Shown here in pieces: positions 39,114 through 55,014 of a stretch of DNA of 64,000 nt. The notes beneath the pieces were generated by a model. The model was given only the letters and a program-made list of their open reading frames with translations, made no database searches and was not told the DNA's origin. The DNA lies in the NCBI RefSeq assembly GCF_003315135.1, contig NZ_QNRK01000017.1, forward strand, positions 52,821-116,820, read 5' to 3'. Numbering within the stretch: position 1 is the stretch's first letter; each line of letters starts with the position of its first letter. Position numbers and translations under genes: made by a program. Source of the stretch: Roseiarcus fermentans. GTDB lineage: Bacteria; Pseudomonadota; Alphaproteobacteria; Rhizobiales; Beijerinckiaceae.

Positions 39114-39300
39114 CGGCGCCCGCCTTTGCCGAGGCGGGCGGCGGGGCGACGACGCTTTCCACCGTCGCCGCGAGGCGCCGCAGGACGACGCGGCGGTCCA
39201 CGGGCCGCCTGACGTCGGAGAGCGACGCCGCCGCGCAGTCGGCCGACCTTCGATATTCCGGGCGCAGATTCCACCTTATCAAGGGGATACGGCGGAATTT

Positions 39301-39739
39301 GCGGGCGACTGGTAACTCCCAACCCCGTCATTGCGAGGAGCAAAGCGACGAAGCAACCCATGCCGCCGCTTGCCTCCTGCGGAAGAAATTGCTCGCAAGG
39401 AAGGGCGGCTGGACGACCAGAGGGCGCGACAGCGGCCCAGCGGCCCTGGATCGCTTCGCTTCGCTCGCGATGACGGCGCTGTTGGCCACCGGCTTAGGAG
39501 TTACGGCGACTGTATCTCCCAAGGTGGACGCCGAAGAACGCCGTCATCGCGAGCGAAGCGAAGCGACCCAGGGGCCGCTGGGCTGCTGTTGCGGCTCGTG
39601 GACCGCCACGCGGTCCCTCGAGCTTCGTTGCGAGCAGAAGACGGAGCAATCCTTGCAAAATGGACGCAAACTGCGTCGTGGATCGCTTCGTCGCTTTGCT
39701 CCTCGCAATGACGGGGTTGGGAGTTACGGGCGACTGCAA
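39301..39739. repeat. Composite repeat with about 45-bp inverted ends (copies 2 and 3)
   Basis: The left end (gcgggcgactggtaactccc, then aaccccgtcattgcgagg) returns inverted at 39690-39739 (cctcgcaatgacggggttgg, then gagttacgggcgactgc). Inside are two palindromic units, 39326-39475 and 39542-39713, of the same family as copy 1. Long matching inverted ends around non-coding DNA recall a miniature transposable element, but no target-site duplication was identified. Confidence 0.75.
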
Positions 39740-39772
39740 CCGCCGACCCGGGCGCGGCGGCGCCGCTCTGCG

Positions 39773-39869
39773 CCGTCCTCGCGAGGAGCCCGAAGGGCGA
39801 CGCGGCGATCCACGGCGCGCAACGGCAGCCCAGCGGCCCCTGAATCGCCACGCTTCGCTCGCGATGACG
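39773..39869. repeat. Palindromic interspersed repeat, copy 4
   Basis: Begins cgtcctcgcgaggagcccga and ends cttcgctcgcgatgacg, with the shared centre ggcagcccagcggcccctg. It is nearly the same unit as copy 1. Confidence 0.78.
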
Positions 39870-39908
39870 ACGGTGTGCGGCGCCCGCCTTTGCCGAGGCG
39901 GGCGGGGC

Positions 39909-40014
39909 GATGTCGCTCGCGGCATCGCATGGGCCCGAGCGGCGACGCGGCGATCCAGAGGGCGCAACAGCAACCCAGCGGCCCCTGGGTCGCTTCGCTC
40001 CGCTCGCGATGACG
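39909..40014. repeat. Palindromic interspersed repeat, copy 5
   Basis: A more diverged left arm is followed by the conserved core cagcggcccctgggtcgc and right end cgctccgctcgcgatgacg. It ends 31 bp from an ATG (40045, minus strand) that stands behind a LexA box. Confidence 0.7.
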
Positions 40015-40045
40015 GGCGCGCGGGCGGGCGGCGCAGTCCGGACAT
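40015..40045 (-). pseudogene. Possible truncated SOS-gene start cut by the repeat
   Basis: On the minus strand an ATG at 40045, 24 bp after a LexA box, starts a reading frame MSGLRRPPARP that runs straight into palindromic repeat copy 5 at 40014. No family can be recognised from so few residues. It may be the remaining start of an SOS gene whose body was lost. Confidence 0.25.
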
Positions 40046-40309: not shown

Positions 40310-40870
40310 TCAGGCGGCGTACGGGCCGACCGGGAGAACCTCCCGGCCGAAGTCGCCGTTGATGATTTCCGCCGCAGACAGATAGGCCGCGAGCGCCGCG
40401 GTCACGAGCCCCAGGTAGCCGCCCGCCGTGTGGAGAATGGGCATGCCGAGCAGGTCTGCGCCCGCCAGCAAGAGGAAGGTGATCCACAGAGCCAGGAACG
40501 TCAGCTGCAGCGCCGTGTTGTGGCGGAACGTCGCGATCCACATGTAGAAGCTGAAGACGCCCCAGACCAGCAGCCACCAGCCGACGAACGACGCCGGCGC
40601 GCCGCCGCCGAGAATCTTGGCGTAGGTCGCGAACGATATCCAGAACGCGCCGTAGGCCAGGAACGCGACGCCCGGGAACGTGTTTCCACGCGCGAATGCG
40701 ATGATTCCGGCGATCGCCTGCACCGCGCCGCCGAACACCAGCGCCATGGCCAGGACCATCGTGATGCCCTTTTCATCGGCCAGACCCGAATTGACCATGC
40801 TGAGAAGCCAGGTCGTCGACGCGAATGCGAACAACCCGAGCGGCGCAGGGTTTCCAAGCTTTACGTCCAT
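40310..40870 (-). CDS. satP: Acetate/succinate transporter, GPR1/FUN34/YaaH family
   Basis: The 186-residue membrane protein has six predicted helices and the family signature NPAPLGLFAFASTTWLLSM at the N-terminus. It has typical AYGAFWISFATY and GWWLLVWGVFSFYMWIAT helices. Relatives import acetate by proton symport. The ATG at 40870 follows a strong ggaggaa site; an upstream in-frame start is spurious. It is transcribed alone. Confidence 0.93.
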   Translation of the reverse strand: MDVKLGNPAPLGLFAFASTTWLLSMVNSGLADEKGITMVLAMALVFGGAVQAIAGIIAFARGNTFPGVAFLAYGAFWISFATYAKILGGGAPASFVGWWLLVWGVFSFYMWIATFRHNTALQLTFLALWITFLLLAGADLLGMPILHTAGGYLGLVTAALAAYLSAAEIINGDFGREVLPVGPYAA

Positions 40871-41256
40871 TTTTTCCTCCCCGGCGCCCAAGCGACGCAC
40901 GGCGCCGACTATCAGGCCTGGCGCGCGAACGTCCATTGGCCATGAGGATTACGCACTGTTGCCGAGGCCGGCCGGCGATCTGCGCGGGTTTTGCACAGAT
41001 CGGTCATTCCCAAGGCGCGCCAAGGCTTGGCGGTTACAAAGTGACGTATCTCCCAAGCCGGGCGGACGAGCGGCGATCGCGGCGCAACGGGAGGGCGCCC
41101 CTCTCACGCCCCGGGCGGCGGGACGCCGCCCCTCCCAGCGCGCGCCCGGTCCGGCTCCTCGCAGACAGCCCCTGGCGGTTACGATCGGTCGCCATCCTTG
41201 CGACAACGCATTGACCACACGGGGTTTCGCCCGCGCAGGAATCAGGGAGCGCGACC
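40871..41256. other. Intergenic region upstream of satP
   Basis: No gene is seen. The region should hold the satP promoter. A small palindrome ccaaggcttgg with a direct repeat of ccaaggc lies near 41010-41031. Open frames here translate to arginine-rich sequence without families. Confidence 0.45.
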
Positions 41257-41415: not shown

Positions 41416-42360
41416 TCAGCCCTCCGTGGGCTCCATCGGTCTGCTGCCGTCGAGTCGGAGCTTGAGGTGGTCGGCGGCGAGGATAGGCGGATATTTTGCC
41501 CCGCCCTGGCCGACGCAGGACGGAATCGCCGCCACCTCGGCCTCCGGATCCGGGTCGAAGAAGAAGGCGATCGAGAAGCGCTCGCGCGGGCTCGCGTTGA
41601 CGACCCGGTGCGGCGTCGAGACATAGATGTCGTTGGTCCAGCGCATCAGGCAGTCGCCGATGTTGACGACGAAGGCGCCGGGGCGCGGCGGGGCGTCGAT
41701 CCAGCGCCCGTCGCGACGGCGCGCCTGCAGGCCGCCGACGTCGTCGGTGGCGAGCAGGGTGATGTTGCCGTAATCGGTATGCTCGCCGGCGCCGGCCGCG
41801 TCTTCGGCCGCGGCCGGGTAGCGCAACAGCCGCAGCGTCGCCATCGGCTTCCTGAATTTGCTCGCGAAGAAGTCGAGCGGCAGGCCGAGATCGTGGGCGA
41901 AGGCGCGATGGATGCGTAACGCCAGCGCCGCGCAGGCGTCGAAATAGCCGAGCGTCGTCGCGCGAAATCCGGGAAGCGCCGGCCAGGCGTTCAGCGCCCG
42001 GAACGGCTTGCCGGCGACGAGGTCGGGATCGTCGGGCGCGAGATCGAGGCCGACGTTGAACGCCTCCTTGCGGTCCGGGCCTTGCGCCGGATCGAGCGCC
42101 TCGCGCATCAGCGCCGAATAGCCGCGGTTGCCGCCGACGACATCCATCGCGATCGTCTGCTTCGCTTCGAGCGGCAGGGCGAAGAAACGGCGCGACTGGG
42201 CGAAGGCGTCGTCGATCAAGGCGCGCGGCACGCCGTGGTTGACCGCGTAGAAGAAGCCGACGTCGCGACAGGCCGCGCCGATCGCCGCCGCCACGTCGGC
42301 GAGACCCTTCTCGCCGTCGTCGAGCGGCGCGAGATCGATGACGGGCAAGGCATCGGTCAT
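41416..42360 (-). CDS. Isopenicillin N synthase-family 2-oxoglutarate/Fe(II) oxygenase
   Basis: The 314-residue protein has the N-terminal DIOX_N segment (LPVIDLAPLDDG, then VGFFYAVNHGVP) and the double-stranded beta-helix. Iron ligands are H-x-D in GEHTDYGNITLL near residue 200 and the distal His in VSTPHRVVN. The 2-oxoglutarate-binding R-x-S is in RFSIAFFFDPDP. Relatives hydroxylate or desaturate small molecules. It is the last gene of the twelve-gene operon, 14 bp after the amidohydrolase gene, and would provide an oxidative step in that pathway. The substrate is unknown. Confidence 0.9.
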   Translation of the reverse strand: MTDALPVIDLAPLDDGEKGLADVAAAIGAACRDVGFFYAVNHGVPRALIDDAFAQSRRFFALPLEAKQTIAMDVVGGNRGYSALMREALDPAQGPDRKEAFNVGLDLAPDDPDLVAGKPFRALNAWPALPGFRATTLGYFDACAALALRIHRAFAHDLGLPLDFFASKFRKPMATLRLLRYPAAAEDAAGAGEHTDYGNITLLATDDVGGLQARRRDGRWIDAPPRPGAFVVNIGDCLMRWTNDIYVSTPHRVVNASPRERFSIAFFFDPDPEAEVAAIPSCVGQGGAKYPPILAADHLKLRLDGSRPMEPTEG

Positions 42361-42374
42361 GGCCTCGACTCCAA

Positions 42375-43832
42375 TCAACAGCAGCCGCAGAGATCGCGGT
42401 AATGCGCGATCGCCGCGGGTTCGAGATCGCGCCAGGCGGCGAGAAAGCCGGCGCGGGTCGCGATCGTGTCGCGATAGGCCTGCCGCAGCGCTGCTTCCGC
42501 TCCGTCGAGATCGGCGCCGGTCAGTCGCCCGTCGCGCCAAACCTCGCGGCCGGCGACGATCAGCCGGTCGATATGGGCGGCGGTGGCGCGGGCGAAGACG
42601 AGGTCGATCGGCTCGACCGCCATCACGGCGTCGCGATCGAGCCGGTCGAGGTCGAGGACGAGGATGTCGGCGGGCGCGCCGACCGCGAGCCGGCCGTCGC
42701 CCGGCGCGCCGTTGGCGAAGCGCCCGTCGCGAACCACGCCCGCGAGCCAGTCGCCGCGCTCGACCACCGTCTCGAAACCCCAGCCGCCGTGCAGGAACTG
42801 GCCGAGCCGCAGTTCGCGCACAATGTCGTCGTCCTCGTCGAGGGCCGAGGCGTCGACCCCGAGCGCGACGCGGCAGCCGCGCCGGAGCGCCGCGCCGATC
42901 GGCGCGATGCCGCTCGACAGATGCAAATTGGAGCTCGGATTGGTGGCGATTACCGCGCCGGAGGCGGCGATCAGGTCGAGATCGGCGTCGCGCGCGTAGA
43001 CGCAATGGGCGAGCGTCAGGCGCGGCGACAGCAGGCCCAGCGTCTTCAGCCGCGCGACCACGCCTTCCGGATAGGCGGCGTCGGCGAAGGCGCGCTGATA
43101 GCGCGTTTCGAGGCAATGCATATGCACGCGCCGGCCAGTGGCGCGCGACCGGTCGGCGATCGCAGCGATCAGCCCGTCCGAGCACCATTGCGGCCCGCTG
43201 GGACCGAATTGCACCGAGAAGGTCGGGCTCTCGACCGCCGCCGCGATCGCTTCGACCCGGGCGATCTGCGCCTCGCCGCCCGGCATCGGGGTGAGGAAGG
43301 CGGCGGCGACGGCCGCGCGGGCCGCGTCCGGCAGCGCCGCGAGCAGCGCGGACTCGTCGCCGTAGACCAGCGGGTTGCGGTCGCGCATGAAGACGGCGAG
43401 GGTGACGCGGACGCCGACGTCGCGTGCGGCGCGCGCGATCTCCCGAGCCTCGTCGACCGGCGACATGGGTTCGGGGAGACCGGGTCCGTGGAAGCGGGTG
43501 TAATGCGCCATGACGGAGCCCGCGCCGCCGCGCGCGGCGCGCCCGAAGGCGGCGAGCGCTGCGCGATAGGGGTCGGCCGGCGGCATCGCCGCCAGCCGCA
43601 TCAGCCAGGTCTCCAGCGGCTTCGCCGCCGCGCCGAACGAGGTCGGTGACAACGCGCGGCAATGGTCGTGGGCGTTGACCAGCGCCGGCAGAGCGAGACG
43701 CCGCCGAACCGGCGCGCCCGCCGCCGGTTCGATCGCCGCGATCCGGCCGTCCGCGATGACGATGTCGACGGCCGGCCCGGCCGGCGCGCCGTCGGTCGGC
43801 AGCAGCGTGACGCCTTCGAGCCGGGCGCTCAT
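42375..43832 (-). CDS. Amidohydrolase (cytosine/guanine deaminase-like superfamily)
   Basis: The 485-residue TIM-barrel amidohydrolase has an H-x-H-like metal site in VNAHDHCRAL (about residues 52-61) and further ligands in MHCLETRY and LAHCVYARD. The metal Asp is probably in LGVDASALDEDDD. The C-terminal beta-sandwich contains VGAPADILVLDL, typical of deaminases and hydrolases of cyclic amidines and amides. It probably opens a ring or removes an amino group in the operon's pathway. The start overlaps the AtzH-like gene by four bases. Confidence 0.87.
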   Translation of the reverse strand: MSARLEGVTLLPTDGAPAGPAVDIVIADGRIAAIEPAAGAPVRRRLALPALVNAHDHCRALSPTSFGAAAKPLETWLMRLAAMPPADPYRAALAAFGRAARGGAGSVMAHYTRFHGPGLPEPMSPVDEAREIARAARDVGVRVTLAVFMRDRNPLVYGDESALLAALPDAARAAVAAAFLTPMPGGEAQIARVEAIAAAVESPTFSVQFGPSGPQWCSDGLIAAIADRSRATGRRVHMHCLETRYQRAFADAAYPEGVVARLKTLGLLSPRLTLAHCVYARDADLDLIAASGAVIATNPSSNLHLSSGIAPIGAALRRGCRVALGVDASALDEDDDIVRELRLGQFLHGGWGFETVVERGDWLAGVVRDGRFANGAPGDGRLAVGAPADILVLDLDRLDRDAVMAVEPIDLVFARATAAHIDRLIVAGREVWRDGRLTGADLDGAEAALRQAYRDTIATRAGFLAAWRDLEPAAIAHYRDLCGCC

Positions 43833-44215
43833 GCCGGTTCGTCGATCACGCTGACGTGCGCCGCGACGATTTTCCAGCCCTCGGGAAAGCGCGCCCAGGT
43901 CTGCATCTGCCGCCCGACTTTTCCGGGCGCGCCGTCGCGCCGGAACAGCGTCGCGGCGACGGCGAAGTCGCGGCCATAGGTCACGATCCGGGTCTTCTCC
44001 AGTCGGCGGCCGAGTCCGGCCGGCGATCGGGCGGCGCGAAAGGCCCTGATCGCCTCGTAGCCGTAGAGGTTTTCGGCCGCGCCGTAGCGAATCGCGGCTT
44101 CGCTGGCCAGGAAGAAGGCGTCGAGGGCGGCGACGTCGTTGGCGGTCAGCGCCCGCTCGTAATCTGCGAACGCCGCCGCGACCTCGGCGCGGGCCTCCGG
44201 ATCGTCGAGGGTCAT
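43829..44215 (-). CDS. AtzH/HpxZ-like protein (DUF3225, NTF2 fold)
   Basis: The 128-residue protein has the SnoaL/NTF2-like pattern of the DUF3225 family: YERALTANDVAALDAFFLAS, AIRYGAAENLYGYEAIRAFR and RQMQTWARFPEGWKIVAAHV. The family includes AtzH of cyanuric acid degradation, which decarboxylates a pathway intermediate, and HpxZ of oxalurate breakdown. Its place beside AtzE- and AtzG-like genes in one operon supports the relation. It overlaps both neighbours by ATGA. Confidence 0.85.
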   Translation of the reverse strand: MTLDDPEARAEVAAAFADYERALTANDVAALDAFFLASEAAIRYGAAENLYGYEAIRAFRAARSPAGLGRRLEKTRIVTYGRDFAVAATLFRRDGAPGKVGRQMQTWARFPEGWKIVAAHVSVIDEPA

Positions 44216-45006
44216 GGGCCCCGTTTCCGTTCGAGCGAAGCGCGCAGATCGGCCAGGAAGGGAATGTCGGAAAACTGGTCGGGCCTCACCCTGTCCCAGG
44301 CGACGCCCGCCGGCTGGCGGAAAGGCGTGTGGGTCTCGATCAGCTCCAGCTCGGTCGCGATGATTGTCAGCGCGGAATCATGGCCCTCCATCACCACCTC
44401 GGACTCGTCGATCACCTGCGACGAATGGACGGTGGTGGCGATCGGCGTCGAGTCGTCGACGAGGCCGAGTTCGCGGAAAATTCCCTGCTCGAGGTCGGCG
44501 AAGCCCGCGCCCTTGCCGACCCGCCCGCCCCGCCGGGTGACGCCGACGCAGCCGACGACGCAGAGATCGAGCTTCGGCATGTCCTCGAAGCGCACCGGCT
44601 CGCCGTAGGCCATGAAGCCCTGCGCGGTCGCGGCGGTCTCGAAGTCGACGTGATCGGCGGCGAGTTTTTCCGGGTCGATGCGCAGATAGGGGAAGCGTTC
44701 GCTGAGATAAGGCACGGGCGCGAACAGGAGCTTGCCGTCGTAGAGCGCCCGGAGCCGCACCGGGATCTGCGGCGGATCGGGGTTGCACTTGACGACGCGC
44801 GCCCGCTTCCAGGCGTCGAGGTCGGCGAGGCGCTTGGCGGCCGCATCGGCGCCGACGAAGTTCGGGATGCGGTCGAAGGTCGGCCCGACATTGACCCCGG
44901 CGGCGACCAGCCGTTCCCAGACGCGGTTGCGCGCCGCGGTCTTGATCGGGTTGCGCTGCGCCCAGCGCGAGTCCTCGCCGGTCATGCCCGAGGCCTCACG
45001 GGACAT
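44212..45006 (-). CDS. 5-formyltetrahydrofolate cyclo-ligase-like protein
   Basis: The 264-residue protein is related to 5-formyl-THF cyclo-ligase (MTHFS), with KTAARNRVWERLVAAGVNVG, the basic VKCNPDPPQIPVR segment and the Gly-rich RRGGRVGKGAGFADLEQG near residue 175. It belongs to a longer MTHFS-like group often found in catabolic operons; true cyclo-ligase activity is not assured. It could salvage a folate-bound or formyl by-product. The start ATG at 45006 overlaps the amidase stop by 11 bp; an ATG at 44985 is an alternative. Confidence 0.82.
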   Translation of the reverse strand: MSREASGMTGEDSRWAQRNPIKTAARNRVWERLVAAGVNVGPTFDRIPNFVGADAAAKRLADLDAWKRARVVKCNPDPPQIPVRLRALYDGKLLFAPVPYLSERFPYLRIDPEKLAADHVDFETAATAQGFMAYGEPVRFEDMPKLDLCVVGCVGVTRRGGRVGKGAGFADLEQGIFRELGLVDDSTPIATTVHSSQVIDESEVVMEGHDSALTIIATELELIETHTPFRQPAGVAWDRVRPDQFSDIPFLADLRASLERKRGP

Positions 45007-46396
45007 GCGCCACGGGGGCCGAGACGACGCCGTCGCGCTCGAGCGCCCTGGCCACGCGCAACGCCAGATCCTCGCGCCACGGCGGCGCGATCACCTGCAC
45101 CCCGATCGGCAACCGCTCGCCCGCCGTCCAGACCGGAACGGCGACCACCGGCAGGCCGATGAACGAGATCGGCTGGGTGAACAGGCCGATGTTCGGCCGC
45201 AGCAGGAGTTCCTCGCCGTCGAGCGTGAACGTCCTCTGGCCGAGCTTCGGGGCGCGCACCGGCGTCGCGGGCGCGAGCAGAATGTCGACGTCCCTGAACA
45301 GGTCGAGCGCCTGCGTGTGAAAGATCCGGCGGAATTTCTGCGCCTGCGCCACCCAGGCGCCCGGCAACATCGCGCCCGCGATCAGCCGGTCGCGGACGTC
45401 CGGGTCGAAGTCTTGCGCCCGCGTCCGCAGGCGCCCGAGATGCAGCGCCGCGCCCTCGGCCATGGTGATGAGGTAGGCCGCGGCGCGCGCCTTCGCGGCG
45501 CCGGCGAGTTCGACCGTTCGCGTCGCGTTGAGCGCCGCCGCGACCCGATCGACCGCCTCGAACGCGCAGGGATCGCCGGAGCGGGCGAACCAGCCGCCGA
45601 GTTTGGCGATCCTGAGGTCGCCGATCCCGTCGTGCAGGGTGAGCGCGGACGGCATCGGCGCGACGTCGGCCTGCGCCGGATCGTCGCTGTCGCGGCCGAG
45701 CATCGCGTCGTAGGCGAGGGCGAGGTCGGTGACGGAGCGCGCGAACGGCCCGAGATGGTCGAGGCTGGCGACGAACGGGAACGTGCGCGCCCGCGACAGG
45801 CGGCCGTAGGTCGGCTTGAGGCCGAACGTCCCGCAGAACGAACTCGGAACCCGGATCGAGCCGTTGGTGTCGGACCCGAGCGCGATCGGCACGAGGCCGC
45901 CGGCGACCGCGGCGCCGGAGCCGCCCGACGACCCCCCCGCCATGTGCGCGAGGTCGTGCGGATTGCGCGACGGTCCGTCGTGGGCGTTCTCGCCGGTGAA
46001 GTCATAGGCGTATTCGCCCATGTTGAGCGCGCCGACGAGAACGGCGCCGGCGGCTTCCAGCTTGGCGACGAGCGTCGCGTCGGCCGCCGCCGGGGGCAGG
46101 TCGCGATTGATCTTCGAGCCGGCGCGGGTCGCCAGGCCCTTCACGTCGAACAGGTTCTTGACCGCGAACGGCGCGCCGGCGAGCGGTCCGACCCGCTCGC
46201 CGCGGGCGCGCGCCGCGTCGATCGCCGCCGCTTTGGCGAGCGCGCGCCGTGCGACGATGTCGGTGAAGGCGCCGTAGGCGTCGTCGCGCGCCTCGATGCG
46301 CCCGAGCGCGGCTTCGGTCACTTCGACCGCGCTCGCGAAGCCGCCCTCGACCGCCGCCGCGATGCCCTGGGCCGACCCGTCGAGGAGCGGCGTCAT
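44996..46396 (-). CDS. AtzE/HpxY-like amidase (amidase-signature hydrolase)
   Basis: The 466-residue amidase has the Ser-cisSer-Lys triad: Lys in PFAVKNLFDVKG (about residue 80), cis-Ser in MAGGSSGGSGAAVAGG, and nucleophile Ser in GSDTNGSIRVPSSFCG. The TGENAHDGPSRNPHD segment before the cis-Ser is typical of AtzE, the 1-carboxybiuret hydrolase, and of HpxY. AtzE needs the small subunit AtzG, whose homologue is encoded just upstream with a four-base overlap. A 1-carboxybiuret-like or oxalurate-like ureide substrate is inferred. Confidence 0.88.
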   Translation of the reverse strand: MTPLLDGSAQGIAAAVEGGFASAVEVTEAALGRIEARDDAYGAFTDIVARRALAKAAAIDAARARGERVGPLAGAPFAVKNLFDVKGLATRAGSKINRDLPPAAADATLVAKLEAAGAVLVGALNMGEYAYDFTGENAHDGPSRNPHDLAHMAGGSSGGSGAAVAGGLVPIALGSDTNGSIRVPSSFCGTFGLKPTYGRLSRARTFPFVASLDHLGPFARSVTDLALAYDAMLGRDSDDPAQADVAPMPSALTLHDGIGDLRIAKLGGWFARSGDPCAFEAVDRVAAALNATRTVELAGAAKARAAAYLITMAEGAALHLGRLRTRAQDFDPDVRDRLIAGAMLPGAWVAQAQKFRRIFHTQALDLFRDVDILLAPATPVRAPKLGQRTFTLDGEELLLRPNIGLFTQPISFIGLPVVAVPVWTAGERLPIGVQVIAPPWREDLALRVARALERDGVVSAPVAHVP

Positions 46397-46581
46397 GGCC
46401 GGTACACCGGCGCGGGTTCGTCTTCGTCGCCGATCCCGGCGGACAGCAGCAGTTCGGCCTGCTGCGCCGCGATCGACAGATGAACGATCGCCTGCGCCCG
46501 CGATTCCGCGGTCAGCGGGATTCCGAGGAGCGGCGCAGCGGCGTCCGCCAGCGCGCCGGGGTCAAAGGGAGGGGCCATCAT
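46393..46581 (-). CDS. AtzG-like small amidase subunit (DUF4089)
   Basis: The 62-residue protein ([20 protein letters not shown], then [20 protein letters not shown]) matches the AtzG/HpxX family of small helical proteins. These bind and stabilise AtzE-type amidases. It starts at 46581, overlapping the upstream hydrolase stop (ATGA), and its stop overlaps the AtzE-like start (ATGA). The perfectly coupled gene pair is strong support for an AtzEG-type complex. Confidence 0.82.
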
Positions 46582-47240
46582 GCGATCGCACTCCGAAAAG
46601 CCGCGAGCGGCGTCGTCCATCCTACGATGGCGCCTTGTGCGCGGATCATCTCGAGAGTCGCGGCCTTGAAGGCCGGAAAGTAGCTCGCCGTCGCATCCTC
46701 GATCAGCAGGCATTCGTAGCCGCGATCGTTGGCCTCGCGCATCGAGGTCTGCACGCAAACCTCGGTGGTGACGCCGGCGAACACGAGGTGGGTGACGCCG
46801 CGCTCGCGCAGGATGTCGCCGACGGCGGTCGCGTAGAACATGCCCTTGCCGGGCTTGTCGACGACGAACTCGCCGGGCGCGGGCGCGCAGGCCTCGACGA
46901 TCGCCGCGCCCGGCTCGCCGCGCACCAGAATGCGCCCCATCGGCCCCATGTCGCCGATGCGCAGCGACGGCAAACCGCGGGCGAGCTTGGCCGGCGGGCA
47001 ATCGGACAGGTCCGGCGCGTGGCTCTCGCGGGTGTGCAGGATCGGCCAGCCCTTGTCGCGGAAGGTCGCGATCAGCGCCGCGACTGTGGGCACGATCTCG
47101 ACCACCGGCGCGAGATCGTTGCCGAGCGTCTCGCCGAACCCGCCGGGCTCGAGAAAGTCGCGCTGCATGTCGATCACCACGAGCGCCGTGCGCGCCGGAT
47201 CGAAGCGGTAGGCGAAGGGTTGAGCCGGAACTTCGATCAT
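46578..47240 (-). CDS. Isochorismatase-family cysteine hydrolase 2
   Basis: The 220-residue protein carries the Asp-Lys-Cys triad of the isochorismatase-like fold: Asp in [14 protein letters not shown], Lys in [13 protein letters not shown], and Cys in [18 protein letters not shown]. Family members include biuret amidohydrolase and RutB-type ureidoacrylate hydrolase. It is clearly paralogous to the enzyme at 48763-49440 but shares only the motif blocks. It lies 5 bp after the ABC ATPase gene and overlaps the AtzG-like gene. Confidence 0.88.
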
Positions 47241-47245
47241 CGCGC

Positions 47246-48766
47246 TCAATGTCCGGCCATGTGGCGGCCGATCGTGGTCCGGTCCGCCCCGGCCGCGTCG
47301 GTGAGGTAGGCGACCTTGCCGCCCGACATGACGGCGATGCGGTCGGACAGTTCGAGAATCTCGTCGAGGTCCTCGGAGACGAGCAGCACGGCCGCGCCGC
47401 GGTTGCGCTGCTCCATGATCTGGGCGCGGATGTCGGCGACGGAGGCGAAGTCGAGGCCGAAGCAGGGATTGGCGACGATCAGCACGTCGACGTCGCCGGA
47501 CAGTTCGCGCGCCAGGATCGCGCGCTGCACGTTGCCGCCGGAGAGGTCGCGGATCGGCGTCTCGGTCGAGGGCGTCTTGACGTTGTAGCGGGCGATCAAC
47601 TCGCGCGCCTCGGCGCGGATCGGTTCGCGCGACATCCAGAAGCCGAGCCGCGCCATCGGAACCTTGTCGAACTTGCGGAAGGCCATGTTCTCGGCGACCG
47701 ACATGTTGGGGACCGAGGCGTTCTTCAGCGGCTCCTCGGGCAGACCGAACACCTTGAAGCGGTCGAAATGGTCGCGCGTCGGCTCGAAATTCTGGTCGTG
47801 GATCAGCACCTGGCCGAGCTTGATCGGCCGCTGGCCGGAAAGCGCCTCGACCAGCTCGCTCTGGCCGTTGCCCGACACGCCCGCGATGCCGACGATTTCG
47901 CCGGCCTTGACCTTGATGTCGAAGCCGTTGACCGAGTCGCGTCCCTCGTCGTTGGCGGCGAACAGGCCCGCGACCTCGAGCGTGACCCCGTTCTTCGGCG
48001 CCTTGGCTCGCGCCGCGGACGGACGGACGACGGCGTCGCCGATCATCATCGCCGCCATCTCGCGCGTCGAGACCGCGCCGACCTTGCCGCCGCCGACCCG
48101 CTGGCCGCGCCGCAGCACGGTGAAGTCGTCGCAGAACGCCTCGACCTCGCGAAACTTGTGGCTGATCATCGCGACCGTGATCTCGCCGCGATGCGCCATC
48201 TCGCGCAGGAGGCCGAGAATCTCGTCCGCCTCGCCCGGCGTCAGCACCGAGGTCGGCTCGTCGAGAATCAGGAAACGCTGGTCGAGATAGAGCAGCTTCA
48301 GGATTTCGAGCTTCTGCTTCTCGCCCGCCGCGAGGCCGGAGACCGGCCGATCGAGCGGCACGCGGAACGGCATGCGCTCGAGGAAGGCCTCCAGCGCCTT
48401 GCGCTCCTTGCGCCAGTCGATGAAGGCCGGCGCGTCGGCGCGGCTGACGACGAGGTTTTCCGCCGCGGTCAAAGCCGGAACCAGGGTGAAGTGCTGGTAC
48501 ACCATGCCGACGCCGAGCGCCTGCGCGTCGCGCGGATTGCGCACCGCGACCTCCGCGCCGTCGATCAGGAGCTTGCCTCTGTCGGGCGTGTAGAAGCCCA
48601 TGATGCACTTGACCAGCGTCGACTTGCCGGCGCCGTTCTCGCCGAGCAGGGCATGGAACGAGCCCGCCGGAACGGACACCGACACGTCCTGCAGCGCCTT
48701 GAGGGCGCCGAAGTGCTTGCTCATGCCGACGGTTTCGAGCGACGGCCCACGCGCGGGATGACTCAT
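47246..48766 (-). CDS. BMP-type ABC transporter ATP-binding protein (two ABC domains)
   Basis: The 506-residue double ATPase is of the sugar/nucleoside (BMP-PnrA) importer type. The first domain has Walker [10 protein letters not shown] and Walker [16 protein letters not shown]; its signature is degenerate ([11 protein letters not shown]). The second has the usual variant Walker [10 protein letters not shown], signature [14 protein letters not shown] and a Walker B without the catalytic Glu ([10 protein letters not shown]). It powers the permeases at 49468-51524. Its start overlaps the stop of isochorismatase 1. Confidence 0.94.
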
Positions 48767-49440
48767 GGCAGCGCCTCGATGAAGGCCTTCGAATTGGCGA
48801 CCGCGCCGAACACGCCGCCCTGCATCGTCACCATCTTGAGCGCGGCGGCGTGGTTGCCGGGGTCGGTCGCGCCGCAGCAATCTTCGAGGATGAGGCATTC
48901 GAAGCCACGGTCGTTGGCTTCGCGCATCGTGGTGTGGACGCAGACGTCGGTGGTGATGCCGGTCAGCACCAGATTGTCGATGCCGCGCGTGCGCAGGATC
49001 AGCTCGAGGTCGGTGGCGCAGAACGAGCCCTTGCCGGGCTTGTCGATGATCGGCTCGCCGGGCAGCGGCTTCAGCTCCTCGATGATCTCCCAGCCGGGCT
49101 CGCCGCGGATCAGGATCTTTCCGCAGGGGCCCGGGTCGCCGATGCCCGCGCCGATCCGCTGCGAGCGCCAGCGCTTGTTGGGCGGAAGGTCGGCGAGGTC
49201 GGGCCGGTGGCCTTCGCGGGTGTGGATGACGGTGTAGCCCTTGGCGCGCAGCGCCGCGAGCAGCGCCTTGATGGGGCCGATCGGCGCCCGGGTGAGCGCC
49301 AGGTCGTAGCCCATGGCGTCGACATAGCCGCCCTCGCCGCAGAAATCGGTCTGCATGTCGATGACGATGACGGCCGTGTTGGCGGGGCGCCAGTCGCCGT
49401 TCCAGGGCCACGGGTAGGGATTGGCGGCGAGGGTCGGCAA
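48763..49440 (-). CDS. Isochorismatase-family cysteine hydrolase 1 (biuret hydrolase-like)
   Basis: The 225-residue protein has Asp in [20 protein letters not shown], Lys in [14 protein letters not shown] and Cys in [18 protein letters not shown]. The N-terminal extension [12 protein letters not shown] and FCGEGGYVD block resemble biuret amidohydrolases. A biuret-type substrate would fit the AtzE/G/H-like proteins in the same operon; this is inference. The start is a TTG preceded by aggggag; no better start lies in frame. It sits between the permease and ATPase genes of the importer. Confidence 0.87.
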
Positions 49441-49467
49441 AGAGAACGCTCCCCTAATTTTCCAGGC

Positions 49468-50385
49468 TCACTTCGCCATCGACAGTTCGCCCGGCATGTC
49501 GCGCGCCGAGTGCGTGGCGCTCGAGGTCGCGATCATGATGATGAGCGTCAAAATGTAGGGCGCGGCGTTGAAGAAGTAGTAGCCCTGGGTGACGCCGATC
49601 GATTGCAGCGACGGCCCGATCGCGCCGGCGGCGCCGAACAGCAGCGCGGCGTAGACGCAGCGCACCGGGCTCCAGCGAGCGAAGATGACCAGCGCGACCG
49701 CCATCAGGCCCTGGCCCGACGACAGGCCCTGGTTCCAGGAGCCGGGATAGGAGAGCGAAAGGAACGCGCCGCCGACGCCGGCCAGGAAGCCGCCGACCGT
49801 CGTCGTCAGCAAGCGCACGAGGTTGACCGAGATGCCCATGGCGCGGGCGGCGGGCGCGCTGTCGCCGACGGTGCGCACGACGAGCCCCCAGCGCGTGTTG
49901 CGCAAGGCCCAGGCGAGAACCAGCGCGACGACGATGCCGACGAAGAACAGCGGATTGACCTGCAGCGCGCTCTTGAGGTTCACGTTGTCGCTCCAGAATC
50001 CGAGCGGGATCGAATCGAGCCGCGGCGCCGTCGGCTGGATGTACGGCTTGCCGAAGAAGAAGGCGAGGCCGACGCCGAACAGCATCATGGCGATGCCGAC
50101 CGCGACGTCGTTGACCTTGGGCAGGCCGCAGATCGAGCCGTGCATCGCGCCGAGCGCCGAGCCCGCGACGCCGGCCGCGAGCACGCCGAGCCAGGGCGAG
50201 CCGGTGTGATAGGAAGCGGCGTAGGCGACCATGGCGCCCATCACCAGCGTGCCCTCGAGGCCGAGATTCACCCGCCCCGACTTTTCGGTCAGACATTCGC
50301 CGAGCGCGACGAACATGAAGGGCGTCGAGACGCGGATGGCGCCGCCCAGCATGGCGATGAGAACCGTAAGGATGGCGTCGCTCAT
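49468..50385 (-). CDS. BMP-type ABC transporter permease 2
   Basis: The 305-residue BPD_transp_2 permease has eight to ten hydrophobic segments and the family motif LTEKSGRVNLGLEGTLVMGA (about residues 30-49). It also has LSYPGSWNQGLSSGQGLMAV. It resembles nucleoside importer permeases of the YufQ/NupQ type. The ATG at 50385 overlaps the stop of permease 1. Much longer in-frame reading upstream is the shadow of permease 1. Confidence 0.93.
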   Translation of the reverse strand: MSDAILTVLIAMLGGAIRVSTPFMFVALGECLTEKSGRVNLGLEGTLVMGAMVAYAASYHTGSPWLGVLAAGVAGSALGAMHGSICGLPKVNDVAVGIAMMLFGVGLAFFFGKPYIQPTAPRLDSIPLGFWSDNVNLKSALQVNPLFFVGIVVALVLAWALRNTRWGLVVRTVGDSAPAARAMGISVNLVRLLTTTVGGFLAGVGGAFLSLSYPGSWNQGLSSGQGLMAVALVIFARWSPVRCVYAALLFGAAGAIGPSLQSIGVTQGYYFFNAAPYILTLIIMIATSSATHSARDMPGELSMAK

Positions 50386-51524
50386 GGGCGATCCCTCGCA
50401 GCCGGCGGCTTGAAGATCGAGAAGCGGCCGTAAAGAGTCTCGGACGTCAGCAGCACGACGAAAATCAGGCCTTCGAGCACCTGAACCGTCGCGTCGGGGA
50501 GCCCCATGCGCCGCTGGATCAGGCCGCCGGCGGCGACGATGCCGCCGAACAGGATCGCGACCGGCGGAATGACCAGCGGATTGTGGCGGGCGAGGAAGGA
50601 CACCAGAATGCCGGTGAAGCCGTAGCCCGCCGCCAGCGAAGCGTTGGCGCGCCCCTGGATCGCCGCGACCTCGAAGAAGCCGGCGAGCCCGGCGCAGGCG
50701 CCGGCGATGCACGAGCAGGCGACGATCAGCTTGCCGACCGGCAGGCCCTGCGCCAGCGCGGCCCGGTAGTTTCCGCCGGTGACCCGGGCGGCGAAGCCGA
50801 AGGTCGTGCGCTCGAGCAGGAGGTAGAGGAGGATGCACAGAAGGATGCCGAAAGCGAAGCCCCAATGGACGTCGGTCCCGGGGATCTTGCCCACCATGTA
50901 GGCGTCGCCGAGCGGCCTGGTGGACGGCTTGTTGGGATTGGAGAGATCGCGCAGCGCCCCTTCGACGAAGAAGTTCATGATGGCGATGCCGATGTAGGTC
51001 AGCAGCAGCGACGAGATCGTCTCGTTCACCCCGCGGGCGTAGCGCAGGAATCCGGCGACGCCGACCCAGAAGCCGCCGACGATCATCGCCATCGCCGCCA
51101 TCAGCGGCAGCGCGACGAGCGGCGGCAGGACGCCGATCATGGGGATGGCGAGCACGGCGGCGGCGAAGCCGCCGAGCACCAGCGCGCCCTCGCCGCCGAT
51201 CATGATCAGCCCGATGCGGGCGGGGATGGCGACGGCGAGCGCGGTCAGGATCAGCGGCGCCGAGCGCTGCAGCGTGTTCTGGAACGAGAAGGCGGTGCCG
51301 AAGCCGCCGCGCCAGATATAGGACACGAAATCGACCGGCGACTTGCCGATCGCGAGCAGGAACAGCGCAAACAGCGCCGCGGCGATCGCAATCGCGAGCA
51401 GGGGGATGGCGACATATTCCGAATTGACGCGCAGTCGCAGCGCCCAATCGGAACGCGCCGCCTCCGGCCCGACCGGCTGGGTCAGGTCCGAGGCGGACTT
51501 TGCGGTCGCTGGCGCGTCCGACAT
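50382..51524 (-). CDS. BMP-type ABC transporter permease 1
   Basis: The 380-residue permease is of the YufP/NupP type. After a hydrophilic N-terminus of about 30 residues come around ten membrane helices, with the family segment IPARIGLIMIGGEGALVLGG and LRYARGVNETISSLLLTYIG. It forms the importer channel with permease 2. The importer family carries nucleosides or nucleobase-like heterocycles, which is relevant for the operon's substrate. Confidence 0.94.
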   Translation of the reverse strand: MSDAPATAKSASDLTQPVGPEAARSDWALRLRVNSEYVAIPLLAIAIAAALFALFLLAIGKSPVDFVSYIWRGGFGTAFSFQNTLQRSAPLILTALAVAIPARIGLIMIGGEGALVLGGFAAAVLAIPMIGVLPPLVALPLMAAMAMIVGGFWVGVAGFLRYARGVNETISSLLLTYIGIAIMNFFVEGALRDLSNPNKPSTRPLGDAYMVGKIPGTDVHWGFAFGILLCILLYLLLERTTFGFAARVTGGNYRAALAQGLPVGKLIVACSCIAGACAGLAGFFEVAAIQGRANASLAAGYGFTGILVSFLARHNPLVIPPVAILFGGIVAAGGLIQRRMGLPDATVQVLEGLIFVVLLTSETLYGRFSIFKPPAARDRP

Positions 51525-51549
51525 GGGACTTTGCTCCGTCTCGCCGGCG

Positions 51550-52665
51550 TCAGGTGGTCGACCCGCTCACGCCTTCGAGCAGGTAGTCCATCTTGTCGAG
51601 GAACGGATCGAGGTTGCCGTAGGTCTTGTCGATCACGACCTTGCCCTTGTTGTCCTTGAGCGGACCGACGTAGATCGGCTTGCCGGCCTTCAGCCCCTCG
51701 ATCGCGGCGAGGGCCGCCTTCTGCGCCTCCGGCGTCGCCGCCGCGCCGAACGGCGTGTTGCGGACGAAGTCGACCTCGTAGCCGCCGGCGAGAAAATTCG
51801 GCGGAGTCTTTCCCGCTGCTATGTCTGCGGCGTAACCCTTGTAGATCGTTTCCCACTTGTATTCGGCGCCGGTGATGAAGCCCTTGGGCGCGAGCGGGGC
51901 CTGGCTGGCGTTGTGGCCGCAGCTCATCACGCCGCGCTTCTCCGCCGTCTCGATCACCACCTTGGGCCCGTCGACGTGGCAGGTGATGACGTCGCAGCCG
52001 GCGTCGACCAGGGCGTTGGCGGCTTCGGCCTCGCGCACCGGCATCGACCAGTCGCCGGTGAAGATCACCTGCACGGTCGCCTTGGGATTGGTCGAGCGCG
52101 CGCCGAGCAGCACCGAATTGATGTTCGACAGCACGCTGGCGATGGGCTTCGCCGCGACGAAGCCGATCTTGTTGGTCTTGGTGCAAAGACCCGCGGCGAC
52201 GCCGTCCACGTAATGGGCCTGATTGAGATAGCCGAAGTAGGAGCCGGCGTTCTTCGGGTCCTTGTCCTTGTTCCACAACGGGGCGGCGTGGCGGAACTGC
52301 ACGTCGGGATATTTCTTGGCGAGGTCGACGACGAACGGCGTGTAGTAACCGAACGAGGTGGCGAGGATCAGGGCCGCCCCGTCGAGGTTGATCATCGATT
52401 CCATCGACTTCGAGACGGCGTCGGTCTCGGGCACGTTTTCTTCCTCGACGACCTTGACGCCCGGCACCTCCTTCAGCGCCTTGATCGCGACCGCATGCGC
52501 CTGATTCCAGCCGAAATCGTCGCGCGCGCCGACGTAGACCACGCCGACCGTCAGGTCCTGGGCGGCGAACGCCCGGCCCAGCGCGCCGAGGTTCAGCGTC
52601 GCGCCCGCGAGCCCCAGCGCGGTCGTCCTGATCAGCGTGCGGCGAGAGATTTCCGGTCCCGACAT
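51550..52665 (-). CDS. BMP family ABC transporter substrate-binding protein
   Basis: The 371-residue PnrA/Bmp-like binding protein starts with a Tat-type signal (SRRTLIRTTALGLAGATLNL) and then VGVVYVGARDDFGWNQAHAV, the typical Bmp first strand with the ligand-stacking aromatic residues. ILATSFGYYTPF and DVITCHVDGP segments follow. Family members bind purine nucleosides; a related group binds other nitrogen heterocycles. The ATG at 52665 is preceded by aaagga. It is the first gene of the twelve-gene operon and indicates what is imported. Confidence 0.92.
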   Translation of the reverse strand: MSGPEISRRTLIRTTALGLAGATLNLGALGRAFAAQDLTVGVVYVGARDDFGWNQAHAVAIKALKEVPGVKVVEEENVPETDAVSKSMESMINLDGAALILATSFGYYTPFVVDLAKKYPDVQFRHAAPLWNKDKDPKNAGSYFGYLNQAHYVDGVAAGLCTKTNKIGFVAAKPIASVLSNINSVLLGARSTNPKATVQVIFTGDWSMPVREAEAANALVDAGCDVITCHVDGPKVVIETAEKRGVMSCGHNASQAPLAPKGFITGAEYKWETIYKGYAADIAAGKTPPNFLAGGYEVDFVRNTPFGAAATPEAQKAALAAIEGLKAGKPIYVGPLKDNKGKVVIDKTYGNLDPFLDKMDYLLEGVSGSTT

Positions 52666-52830
52666 CCTGGCGTCCTTTGCTCGTTTCCGACGCGAATGCC
52701 GCGCCATTCCCCGGGGACAGGCGGTCGCAAGGAGCGTGCCGCGAGGCGCGGCCGATTGTCGCAGTTTTTTTCGCAGGCCGCGCCGTTCAGCCGCCCCGTT
52801 TTCTGGGCGCCGTGCCTTAATGTTGAGCGG

Positions 52831-52904: not shown

Positions 52905-53840
52905 TCACTTGGCCTTTCGCGACCGCGTCCCGGCGGCGGCCTTCGGCGCGGCCTTGGCCGGCGCCGCCTCGCCCCGCGTCTTCGACGCGGCCTTCGGCTT
53001 CGAAGCGGCCGCCGCAGGCGCGTCCGCGGGCTTCGTCTCGCCCTTCGTCGCCGGTTCGGCGGCGCCGACCGCCGCGATGCTCTTGCGCAGGGCGTCCATG
53101 ATGTTGACGACATTGCTCGGCCGCGGCTGCTCCGACGGCCTCGCCGGCAGCCCCGCCTGCTTCGAGCGGATCAGTTCGACGACGGCGTCCTCGTAGCGGT
53201 CGTTGAATTCGGCCGGGTCGAAATGCCCCGCCTTCCTTTCGATGATGACGTGCGCGAGGTCCTTCATCTCCTCGGGGAGCTTCAGCTCCGGAATGTCCTC
53301 GAAGTAGGTGTCCTCGCTGCGCACTTCGGACGCGTAGCGCAGAACGGTGCCGAGCAGGCCCTTGCCGAGCGGCTCCAGCAGGATGACGCGCTCGCGCCGG
53401 GCCATCACGACCCTGCCGAGCCCGACCACCTTCTCGTCCCGCATCGCGTCGCGAATGATCGAGAACGCCTCTTCCGCCACCCGCTCGCCGGGCGCGATGT
53501 AATAGGGCGCGTCGAGGTATCTCGGGTCGATCTCGGCGCGGGGCACGAATTTTTCGATCTCGACCGTGTGGTTGCTCTCGATCTGGATCTTGTCGAGTTC
53601 GTCGTCCTCGACCAGCACCCAGGTGTCGGCGGCGACCGGATAGCCCTTCGCCTGATCGTCGTTCTCGACCACGTCGCCCGTCACCGCGTCGACGAACTGC
53701 CGCTTCACCTTGTTGCCGGTCTTGCGGTTGAGGGTGTTGAACGCCACCCGCGACGACGAGCTCGACGCCGGATAGAGGTTGACCGCGCAGGACACGAGAG
53801 AAAGCTTCAGGTAGCCTTTCCAGCTCGCTCGGGGGGCCAT
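52905..53840 (-). CDS. ku: Bacterial Ku, non-homologous end-joining protein
   Basis: Ku binds DNA double-strand ends and recruits LigD. The 311-residue protein has the Ku core (residues 1-255): KGYLKLSLVSCAVNLYPASS, KRQFVDAVTGDVVENDDQAK, APYYIAPGERVAEEAF and LGRVVMARRERVILLEPLGK. A basic Lys/Ala-rich tail (about 265-311) ends in RSRKAK. Such tails help DNA binding. It is divergent from the BRCT-like/TPR gene with only 75 bp between, and ligD lies 1.2 kb away on the same strand as ku. Confidence 0.96.
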   Translation of the reverse strand: MAPRASWKGYLKLSLVSCAVNLYPASSSSSRVAFNTLNRKTGNKVKRQFVDAVTGDVVENDDQAKGYPVAADTWVLVEDDELDKIQIESNHTVEIEKFVPRAEIDPRYLDAPYYIAPGERVAEEAFSIIRDAMRDEKVVGLGRVVMARRERVILLEPLGKGLLGTVLRYASEVRSEDTYFEDIPELKLPEEMKDLAHVIIERKAGHFDPAEFNDRYEDAVVELIRSKQAGLPARPSEQPRPSNVVNIMDALRKSIAAVGAAEPATKGETKPADAPAAAASKPKAASKTRGEAAPAKAAPKAAAGTRSRKAK

Positions 53841-53871
53841 GACGGATGAACTCCACGCAAATCGACGCTGT

Positions 53872-53887
53872 GGTTAAGGCGTTAACC
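53872..53887. promoter_or_regulatory. Candidate operator between ku and the BRCT-like/TPR gene
   Basis: GGTTAA-ggcg-TTAACC is a perfect 6-bp inverted repeat in the 75-bp divergent region. It sits 32 bp before the ku start and 29 bp before the other start, so one bound factor could control both. The regulator is unknown. Confidence 0.4.
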
Positions 53888-53915
53888 TGACAACGAAGCC
53901 GATCTTTACGACACT

Positions 53916-54998
53916 ATGACTTCATCAGCTGAAAGAGTCTACATATACGGCCGGCTTCGGGGGCTCACCCGGCGGCGACTCGAGGCGTTGACGGCGGCGG
54001 CGGGTCTGGCGCTGACGCGCGCAAGCGCGGCGGCGGACGCCATCGTCGTCTGCCACGCCCCGTCCGCCCGCGTCCTCTGCGACGATGGCGAGCTTCGGCT
54101 CGGCTTGCGCCTGAAGCCCGGGGCGCGCCTGGCCTCCGAGGGCGCGTTCCGGCGCCGGCTGGGGCTCGAAGCGGCGCCGGCGCCGGGCGGTCCCTATTCC
54201 GAGGATCAGATGATCCGCCACGCCGGCCTCAGCCGCGCGCAACTGGGCGCGCTCGCGCTGTTCGACGTGGTCGCGCCGGTCGACGGCCGCTACGCCTACG
54301 CCGACCTCGTCGCGGCGCGCGCGGTCGGCCAGCTCCTGTCTTCCGGCGCCAGGCTCCAGAGGATCGTCGCCGCCGCGCTCGAACTCGAGCGGCGCGGGGA
54401 AAGGCTGTCGAGCGTCCGTCTCGCCGAAGCGCCGTGGGGCGCCGTCCTCCAGGTCGTCGAGGGCGCGTTGGCCGACATGGACGGCCAGCTTCTCCTGCCG
54501 CTTGAAGGGTCGGACCTCGACGCCGACGGCGCCTTCGCCCTCGCCGAGGCGGCGGAACGCGAGGGCGATCTCGCGTCCGCGCGGCGGTGGTACGAGCTCG
54601 CGGTTCGCCTCGACCCGACCGATCCCATCCTCCCCTTCAATCTCGGCAACGTCCTCGACGAACTGGGCCTCGCGCGGGAGGCGGAGTTCGCCTACCGGCG
54701 CGCGATCGCGAGGGCGACGGACATGGCGGACGCCTGGTTCAACCTCGGCGTCCTTCAGGAGAAGACCGGGCGGGAGGCCGAGGCGCTCGGGAGCTACGAA
54801 CGCGCCTTCGCAATCGATCCGACCTACGCCGACGCGCTCCACAATGCCGCGCTCCTGCATATGCGGAGCGGACGGTTCACGGCGGCTGCCGGCCTTCTCG
54901 AGCAGATCGGCGCGGCGTCGCCGGCGGACGCGACCGAGATCCGGCGCCTCGCCCATCTCTGCCGGGTGGCGGCCACCAACGACGGTCGGCCGGGGTGA
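53916..54998 (+). CDS. BRCT-like, MerR-like and TPR protein beside ku and ligD
   Basis: The 360-residue protein appears to have three parts. Residues about 7-55 (VYIYGRLRGLTRRRLEALTA, then ASAAADAIVVCH) have the pattern of a BRCT domain. Residues about 95-165 (MIRHAGLSRAQLGALALFDV, then YADLVAARAVGQLL) look like a MerR-type winged helix. Residues about 205-340 form TPR units (ARRWYELAVRLDPTDPILPF, EAEFAYRRAIARATDMADAW, ALGSYERAFAIDPTYADALH). It lies between ku and ligD on the opposite strand, its end only 16 bp from the ligD stop. A role in end joining is inferred from position and the BRCT-like part. Confidence 0.75.
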   Translation: MTSSAERVYIYGRLRGLTRRRLEALTAAAGLALTRASAAADAIVVCHAPSARVLCDDGELRLGLRLKPGARLASEGAFRRRLGLEAAPAPGGPYSEDQMIRHAGLSRAQLGALALFDVVAPVDGRYAYADLVAARAVGQLLSSGARLQRIVAAALELERRGERLSSVRLAEAPWGAVLQVVEGALADMDGQLLLPLEGSDLDADGAFALAEAAEREGDLASARRWYELAVRLDPTDPILPFNLGNVLDELGLAREAEFAYRRAIARATDMADAWFNLGVLQEKTGREAEALGSYERAFAIDPTYADALHNAALLHMRSGRFTAAAGLLEQIGAASPADATEIRRLAHLCRVAATNDGRPG

Positions 54999-55014
54999 AC
55001 CCGTCGGCGGCGGG

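Follow-up and report, generated by a model that had tools for sequence, protein, structure and literature searches.

A probable triuret/biuret nitrogen-scavenging operon with an accessory oxygenase and deaminase-type amidohydrolase in Roseiarcus fermentans

A pathway for the use of triuret and biuret that comprises TrtA, BiuH and AtzF has been described (PMC7948467), as has a triuret operon with an importer of the BMP type (PMC12625717), and AtzE, AtzG and AtzH constitute the published carboxybiuret branch (PMC6219798). Here we analyse 64,000 nucleotides of the alphaproteobacterium Roseiarcus fermentans (contig NZ_QNRK01000017.1, positions 52,821 to 116,820; hereafter ‘the window’), the genome of which amounts to 6.79 Mb in 90 contigs with an estimated completeness of 99%. 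The minus strand of the window carries a putative operon of twelve genes (41416-52665), for which an earlier note had proposed the import and breakdown of a nitrogen-rich ureide or heterocycle by a route to which no described pathway fully corresponds. The latter view has to be given up, since the triuret/biuret route covers the importer, both isochorismatases and AtzF, and the carboxybiuret branch covers AtzE, AtzG and AtzH; judged by sequence, only the oxygenase, the amidohydrolase and a protein similar to MTHFS match no described pathway that we found. It remains probable that a nitrogen-rich ureide is imported and stripped of its nitrogen, and a heterocycle is a weaker candidate for import.

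The triuret operons of Herbaspirillum sp. BH-1 and Rhizobium leguminosarum 3841 (PMC7948467) have TrtA, BiuH and AtzF in common with the window, where all tested catalytic and discriminating residues are kept but for one tolerated position. Compared with them, the window adds AtzG, AtzE, AtzH, the MTHFS-like protein, the amidohydrolase and the oxygenase, and its atzF gene lies 5 kb away on the other strand. Contigs of ammonia oxidisers with bmpA-nupABC, trtA, biuH, trtB and atzF (PMC12625717) share the BMP-type importer, trtA and biuH, while a 2-oxoglutarate oxygenase, a deaminase of the kind found here and an MTHFS-like gene are not named in the accessible part of that paper. With the cyanuric acid operon atzDGEHF of Pseudomonas sp. 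ADP and with further atzG-atzE-atzH clusters (PMC6219798) the window has this gene trio, atzF and an AtzT-like binding protein in common; by contrast, no AtzD was found in its genome, BiuH and TrtA are present instead, and the MTHFS-like gene is placed between atzE and atzH. Such clusters are likewise reported with ATP-binding cassette (ABC) transporters, with amidases, or with a monooxygenase and a flavin mononucleotide reductase, and in singular arrangements in, among others, Methylobacterium and Pseudorhodoplanes (PMC6219798). This oxygenase in the company of triuret genes is not described in the literature searched, which included few subscription papers, and AtzGEH, deaminase and oxygenase on a triuret/biuret core appear to form a variant of which we found no description there.

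Predicted triuret and biuret hydrolysis

We consider it very probable that the back end of the operon is of the triuret/biuret nitrogen-scavenging type, and equate it with the published route because of TrtA, BiuH, AtzG, AtzE, AtzH and AtzF in conjunction with a recurring importer/biuH block. The two hydrolases which the earlier note had recognised as isochorismatase-like belong to that family by Pfam, and sequence comparison refines them to BiuH and TrtA. The first one (48763-49440, minus strand, TTG start) scores above the cut-off of the BiuH equivalog NF050097 (422.9 versus 370 bits), has biuret hydrolase 6azo as best solved match (E 7.9e-124), is 78% identical to known BiuH over 221 positions with agreement at 7/7 compared positions, and retains D36, F41, K142, K145, C175 and Q215; on this sequence evidence its product is biuret hydrolase BiuH. 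The second one (46578-47240, minus strand; ATG at 47240, a TTG at 47249 being possible) finds as best solved matches 6xix (E 6.1e-94) and 6xj4, the sequence of which is that of 6xje, a TrtA structure (PMC7948467). Its identity with characterised TrtA is 65% over 220 positions, and of 13 characterised residues compared 12 are retained. The catalytic triad (D24, K129, C162) as well as F29, K132 and Q202 are present in the window protein and in 80/80 relatives, and the TrtA-type residues F35, N41, E160, Y187 and I205 are all found (5/5), whereas the window BiuH carries the BiuH letters (Y, Y, D, T, V) at the same five discriminating positions. The sixth position of the TrtA motif, A134, is Met in the window protein and in 27/80 relatives; because of this, and since the substitution A134S is not deleterious in TrtA, we left A134 out of the residues defining TrtA. 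The product is thus predicted to be triuret hydrolase TrtA, acting on triuret.

The AtzG-like small subunit (46393-46581, minus strand) clears its Pfam cut-off (32.1 versus 24 bits) and has no NCBIfam match. The adjacent AtzE-like amidase (44996-46396, minus strand) clears both AtzE cut-offs (NF006631, 709.6 versus 461 bits; TIGR02715, 683.9 versus 425.75 bits). Its best solved match, 6c62 (E 1.8e-147), is labelled biuret hydrolase and is taken by us to be AtzE; the window amidase bears the motifs GGSSGGS and FAVKN, presumably harbouring the Ser-cisSer-Lys triad. The family tests place the AtzE/AtzG pair among the carboxybiuret hydrolases, and the corresponding reaction is predicted. AtzH (43829-44215, minus strand; HpxZ/DUF3225 family, NF033625, 182.8 bits, cut-off 135) resembles the solved AtzH 6bjt (E 8e-38). 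In a quick tree with few supported forks, its closest rows are homologues from loci carrying atzE, and 28 homologues from loci devoid of atzE mostly cluster separately, a split which suggests two uses of the AtzH-like family, one of them perhaps TrtB. Our initial guess that TrtB is the MTHFS-like protein, encoded between atzE and atzH, was dropped in view of the Herbaspirillum frisingense locus L046, where an AtzH-like gene stands behind trtA. This arrangement and the split within the tree make it more likely that TrtB belongs to the AtzH-like family. Finally, allophanate hydrolase is encoded by atzF, a gene absent from the earlier list (57703-59607, plus strand, ATG at 57796 possible; TIGR02713, 787.6 bits, cut-off 511.05), which is separated from the operon by genes for Ku, a TPR protein and LigD (bacterial end-joining; 52905-57633).

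The operon may then work as follows. A planar polyurea would enter through the BMP-type importer, and TrtA would convert triuret to 1-carboxybiuret and ammonia. Carboxybiuret could be processed by AtzEG to 1,3-dicarboxyurea and by AtzH to allophanate or, alternatively, lose CO2 to give biuret, from which BiuH would form allophanate; AtzF would free the final nitrogen from allophanate. Induction would occur at nitrogen limitation via a conserved sigma-54-type promoter. Upstream of these steps, and less firmly, the oxygenase and the amidohydrolase may oxidise and deaminate an amino-heterocycle (purine-, pyrimidine- or triazine-like), the resulting ureide entering at triuret, carboxybiuret or biuret as substrate of TrtA, AtzEG or BiuH.

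Conservation, probable nitrogen control and the putative imported ligand

One scan of genome contigs with TrtA gave 584 confirmed loci, the best 80 of which were kept, so that the set leans to close relatives. Genes were counted as matches of at least 35% identity inside the fetched stretch, and the counts are lower bounds because several contigs end inside the operon. The ABC ATPase is found in 76 loci, biuH in 70, the second permease (permB) in 69, the first (permA) in 68 and the binding protein (sbp) in 67, followed by atzH (56), atzF (43), atzE (33), the MTHFS-like gene (19), the amidohydrolase (5) and atzG (4, the product having 62 residues and being easily missed); the oxygenase is present in 20 loci, in 18 of them with at least 50% identity. 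Since its core recurs, the grouping of these genes cannot be put down to chance. In a sample of 385 genomes of the class, TrtA-like matches of at least 51% occur in 39.

Other recurring genes were counted at 45% identity (regulators at 40%), with one to three representatives serving to name each enzyme family. Among the enzymes, formamidase occurs in 22 loci, cyanuric acid hydrolase in 10 and 8-oxoguanine deaminase in 7; among the regulators, two of the GntR type occur in 26 and 19 loci and one of the LysR type in 6. The formamidase gene (L043, 5658-6674, 549 versus 406 bits; 21 further loci) usually lies between permease and biuH genes; by our own reasoning formylated ureas, if processed, would yield formamide. 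A triuret operon which is common in the class, possesses its own conserved binding pocket and sigma-54-type promoter, and is combined with modules such as formamidase, AtzD, 8-oxoguanine deaminase and AtzGEH suggests a significance of polyureas, and of ring compounds related to them, for nitrogen supply.

The sigma-54 consensus is TGGCACG-N4-TTGCW with its GG and GC elements. A site of this type, CGGCACGCTCCTTGCG (52726-52741, minus strand), lies 60 nt before the ATG at 52665, and matches the consensus at 10/12 positions, GG and GC included; no second site of this quality is present in the window. Upstream of sbp, 45 of the 65 scorable loci have a site with at least 10/12 and with GG and GC, as opposed to 34 among 1300 random stretches of equal length drawn from the same loci, and 38 of the 45 fall 36-74 nt before the estimated sbp start. 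Taken by itself the window site is not above chance, the window count at two mismatches being 4 (mean 6.87 expected by chance); it is the conservation in relatives that constitutes the evidence for the promoter. Since atz operons are under sigma-54 control (PMC6834077), the conserved site indicates that the operon is probably nitrogen-controlled. A weak sigma-54-like site without the GC of the -12 element is also seen before atzF (57729-57744, plus strand).

The importer consists of the BMP-family binding protein (51550-52665, start at 52665 or 52707; Pfam Bmp, 120 bits), permeases 1 (50382-51524; BPD_transp_2, 96.8 bits) and 2 (49468-50385; 127.2 bits), and a two-domain ATPase (47246-48766; ABC_tran, 161.6 bits in two stretches), all encoded on the minus strand. 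The binding protein is similar to AtzT (6pi5, E 1.5e-43, second to 3s99, E 4.5e-44), the ligands of which are guanine and 2-hydroxyatrazine. From the AtzT pocket, Ser97, Phe98, Asn169 and Trp194 are retained in the window protein and 67/67 aligned orthologues, and all of these have His and Asp in place of Asn218 and Asn220. In place of Tyr45 the window protein has Trp, as do 35 orthologues (the other 32 have Tyr), and in place of Glu165 it has Ser (Gln, Ser, Thr or Ile among the 67). Considering positions 45, 139 and 165 together, WHS, WHT or WHI occur in 16/16 loci with the oxygenase and in 19/28 other loci from outside the Betaproteobacteria, and YQQ in 22/23 betaproteobacterial loci. As the pocket type is alike with and without the oxygenase, the ligand would be common to trt loci and not specific to those with the oxygenase; sequence thus points to a planar compound shared by these loci, most simply triuret or biuret.

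Oxygenase, amidohydrolase and alternative explanations

The 2-oxoglutarate/Fe(II) oxygenase (41416-42360, minus strand; DIOX_N and 2OG-FeII_Oxy) shares H194, D196, H251, R261 and S263 without exception with 17 relatives (18 rows in all); we take these residues to be the His-Asp-His iron triad and the Arg-x-Ser motif. In fold, its predicted model (predicted local distance difference test score, pLDDT, 91.0) comes closest to 9ovh, which is an ancestral reconstruction, to 6jyv, which bears the label isopenicillin N synthase or ‘probable iron/ascorbate oxidoreductase’, and then to thymine 7-hydroxylase 5c3p, a Neurospora enzyme of 35% identity to the window protein with a likeness in fold, and presumably the nearest solved fold with a demonstrated natural substrate. 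None of the 18 loci with an oxygenase of at least 50% identity is among the 29 loci assigned to Betaproteobacteria, two of which (L030, L067) have weaker matches of 42% and 37%. In these 18 loci the gene is located upstream of sbp (11 loci), farther behind trtA (five) or at most 34 nt from the trtA end (L059, L060). When 30 oxygenase loci found by search were placed in a tree (a partial 62% match in the TrtA genome G376 being unplaced), a clade of 25 rows comprised 18 of the 19 trt-locus rows and seven others. The genomes of these seven have a TrtA-like match of at least 51% in 3/7 cases, compared with 35/377 other genomes (p 0.024), and one of the seven oxygenases (L123) has a TrtA-like gene and atzF in its neighbourhood. 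On Paroceanicella and Sulfitobacter plasmids, oxygenases of 59% and 51% identity, which group together and may lie outside the trt clade, are lined up with a cytosine deaminase or an amidohydrolase, with flavin-type oxidoreductases and with a creatininase-family gene.

Two further features near clade oxygenases were seen by eye. In L123 (1474-10011), the trtA-like gene (57%) and the oxygenase adjoin a block resembling carbamate kinase/oxamate carbamoyltransferase (allFGHK), such as is reported on comammox contigs (PMC12625717). In L125 (4064-8591), a Cas9-like protein of 1085 residues and two smaller neighbours adjoin the oxygenase.

The deaminase-type amidohydrolase (42375-43832, minus strand; Amidohydro_1, 102 bits) has 8-oxoguanine deaminase NF006055 as best NCBIfam match, far below the cut-off (117.4 versus 532 bits); its predicted model (mean pLDDT 59.7) was set aside. 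If either an 8-oxoguanine deaminase at 60% identity or an amidohydrolase of the window type at 45% is counted as a deaminase gene, such a gene accompanies the oxygenase in 9/18 loci, as against 3/62 loci devoid of the oxygenase (Fisher 3.2e-5), and in 9/18 versus 3/33 without the Betaproteobacteria (p 0.0018). Associations with the oxygenase are also seen for atzE (p 0.012; 0.046 without Betaproteobacteria) and the MTHFS-like gene (9/18 versus 10/62, p 0.009, but only 0.23 without Betaproteobacteria). Elsewhere, an amidohydrolase homologue occurs with atzH, atzE and atzF in one stretch of 19.5 kb (L160; genome G203), and homologues in Skermanella and L162 stand beside a ring-opening amidohydrolase, a formamidase and an allantoinase-like gene; no ring-opening gene is among the genes listed for two Azospirillum plasmids with such homologues. 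The MTHFS-like protein (44212-45006, minus strand; Pfam 5-FTHF_cyc-lig, 66.5 bits, cut-off 27) is presumably akin to the COG0212/MTHFSD paralogues. A role in folate metabolism was discarded, considering that it scores below the MTHFS equivalog cut-off (TIGR02727, 24.3 versus 84.9 bits), has no relative in the PDB up to E 0.1, and is not encoded in L014.

It is tempting to speculate that oxygenase and amidohydrolase form a variable front end by which an amino-heterocycle would be converted to a ureide, a proposal which we advance tentatively and hold to be slightly less probable than not; because the neighbourhood picture is mixed, the amino-heterocycle is preferred as upstream substrate and not claimed. 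Several observations weigh against this reading of the operon. The oxygenase (at least 50% identity) is absent from 62/80 loci and the window-type amidohydrolase from 75/80, so that neither is needed for triuret. Taken singly and without Betaproteobacteria, the two deaminases yield p values of 0.08 and 0.047; they were pooled after the loci had been viewed, and relatedness inflates the significance of the p values. AtzD shows no association with the oxygenase (2/18 versus 8/62 loci), a single clade of trt-locus oxygenases is neither shown nor rejected (approximately unbiased test, p-AU 0.095), and six of the seven other clade oxygenases (L124-L129) have no recognised deaminase, trt or atz neighbour. 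Moreover, the window genome contains xanthine dehydrogenase and a PuuD-type urate oxidase, and a second urate route is therefore not needed. All 11 scored genes at 40% identity are found together in none of the 80 loci, many stretches being truncated at a contig end or at the maximal fetched length; L014, L017 and L018 have every scored gene except the MTHFS-like one, and L014, the closest relative, features an unrelated minus-strand open reading frame in its place.

A further view is that oxygenase and deaminase constitute an enzymatic route from a heterocycle (8-oxopurine or urate, amino-triazine or pyrimidine) into triuret, carboxybiuret or biuret. We regard this as rather doubtful; if true, polyureas would be catabolic intermediates formed in the cell, beyond fertiliser impurities or products of chemical oxidation, and the oxygenase and deaminases recurring beside trtA are directly testable candidate makers of TrtA precursors. 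In its purine version the deaminase would supply urate or another 8-oxopurine, whose C4-C5 bond the oxygenase would cleave; by our own reasoning this would leave the N-C-N-C-N-C-N chain of triuret for TrtA. Consistently, an 8-oxoguanine deaminase gene adjoins the oxygenase in L048, L055, L059 and L060 and is in the same locus in L032, and the three deaminases tested (L048, L032, L060) all clear the family cut-off (3/3). Such enzymes convert 8-oxoguanine to uric acid (PMC6186785), and chemical oxidation of urate yields triuret, the natural source of which is called unknown (PMC7948467). However, 9/18 oxygenase loci have no deaminase in the fetched stretch, the window amidohydrolase is far under the 8-oxoguanine deaminase cut-off, and the genome has xanthine dehydrogenase and urate oxidase of its own, which leaves this source of triuret decidedly improbable. 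The related idea of a urate shortage, for which a genome devoid of urate oxidase is expected if the oxygenase handles urate, was rejected on the same ground; among eight genomes searched (the window genome and seven with a clade oxygenase), PuuD occurs in six and xanthine dehydrogenase above cut-off in six.

For a triazine-type feed, in which the amidohydrolase would deaminate an amino-triazine or similar compound and ring opening would give carboxybiuret, one can invoke L013, which combines most of the same operon with AtzD and a window-type amidohydrolase, AtzD-type genes in the vicinity of amidohydrolase homologues (Skermanella plasmid, L162), a further one in L142 near distant homologues of amidohydrolase (32%) and oxygenase (45%), and the AtzT-like binding protein. 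This feed appears quite unlikely, though, in that AtzD and oxygenase do not co-occur preferentially, Asn218 and Asn220 of AtzT are replaced, and the AtzD family was not found in the window or L014 genomes; the earlier note was right that no cyanuric acid hydrolase is present, PF09663 being undetected in the entire genome by a search that was positive in 3/5 others. Alternatively, oxygenase and amidohydrolase may be passengers that share only the nitrogen control, or the oxygenase may demethylate methylated ureides. Both genes are indeed missing from most trt loci, and 4/7 of the other clade-oxygenase genomes lack a TrtA match of at least 51%, but the placement of several oxygenases next to trtA or the importer, their association with deaminases, and the enrichment of TrtA in genomes with a clade oxygenase argue otherwise and render this explanation somewhat unlikely. 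Highly improbable, lastly, is an oxalurate operon of the HpxXYZ type with AtzG, AtzE and AtzH acting on allantoin-derived oxalurate: AtzH does clear the HpxZ cut-off, yet AtzE clears both AtzE cut-offs, and BiuH, TrtA and AtzF accompany the trio.

Operon layout and neighbouring features

The order of genes on the minus strand is sbp, permA, permB, biuH, atpase, trtA, atzG, atzE, mthfs, atzH, amidohydrolase and oxygenase. All twelve genes announced in the earlier note are open at their coordinates, and its statement that most overlap by four bases holds for 6/11 joints with the starts used here, namely permA/permB, biuH/ATPase, trtA/atzG, atzG/atzE, mthfs/atzH and atzH/amidohydrolase. The overlap of atzE and mthfs amounts to 11 nt, and the four other joints are gaps of 25, 27, 5 and 14 nt; if trtA began with the TTG at 47249 and the oxygenase with that at 42378, there would be eight 4-nt overlaps. 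The family names given in that note likewise agree with Pfam (Bmp, BPD_transp_2 twice, ABC_tran, Isochorismatase twice, AtzG-like, Amidase, 5-FTHF_cyc-lig, AtzH-like with 184 bits, Amidohydro_1, DIOX_N and 2OG-FeII_Oxy).

Some 480 nt downstream of the operon, a transporter of the GPR1/FUN34/YaaH family is encoded on the minus strand (40310-40936), probably as a separate unit. Still farther downstream, imperfect direct and inverted repeats of 30-95 nt are clustered at 39019-40032, and open reading frames within this cluster encode CEEQSDEA-like peptides.

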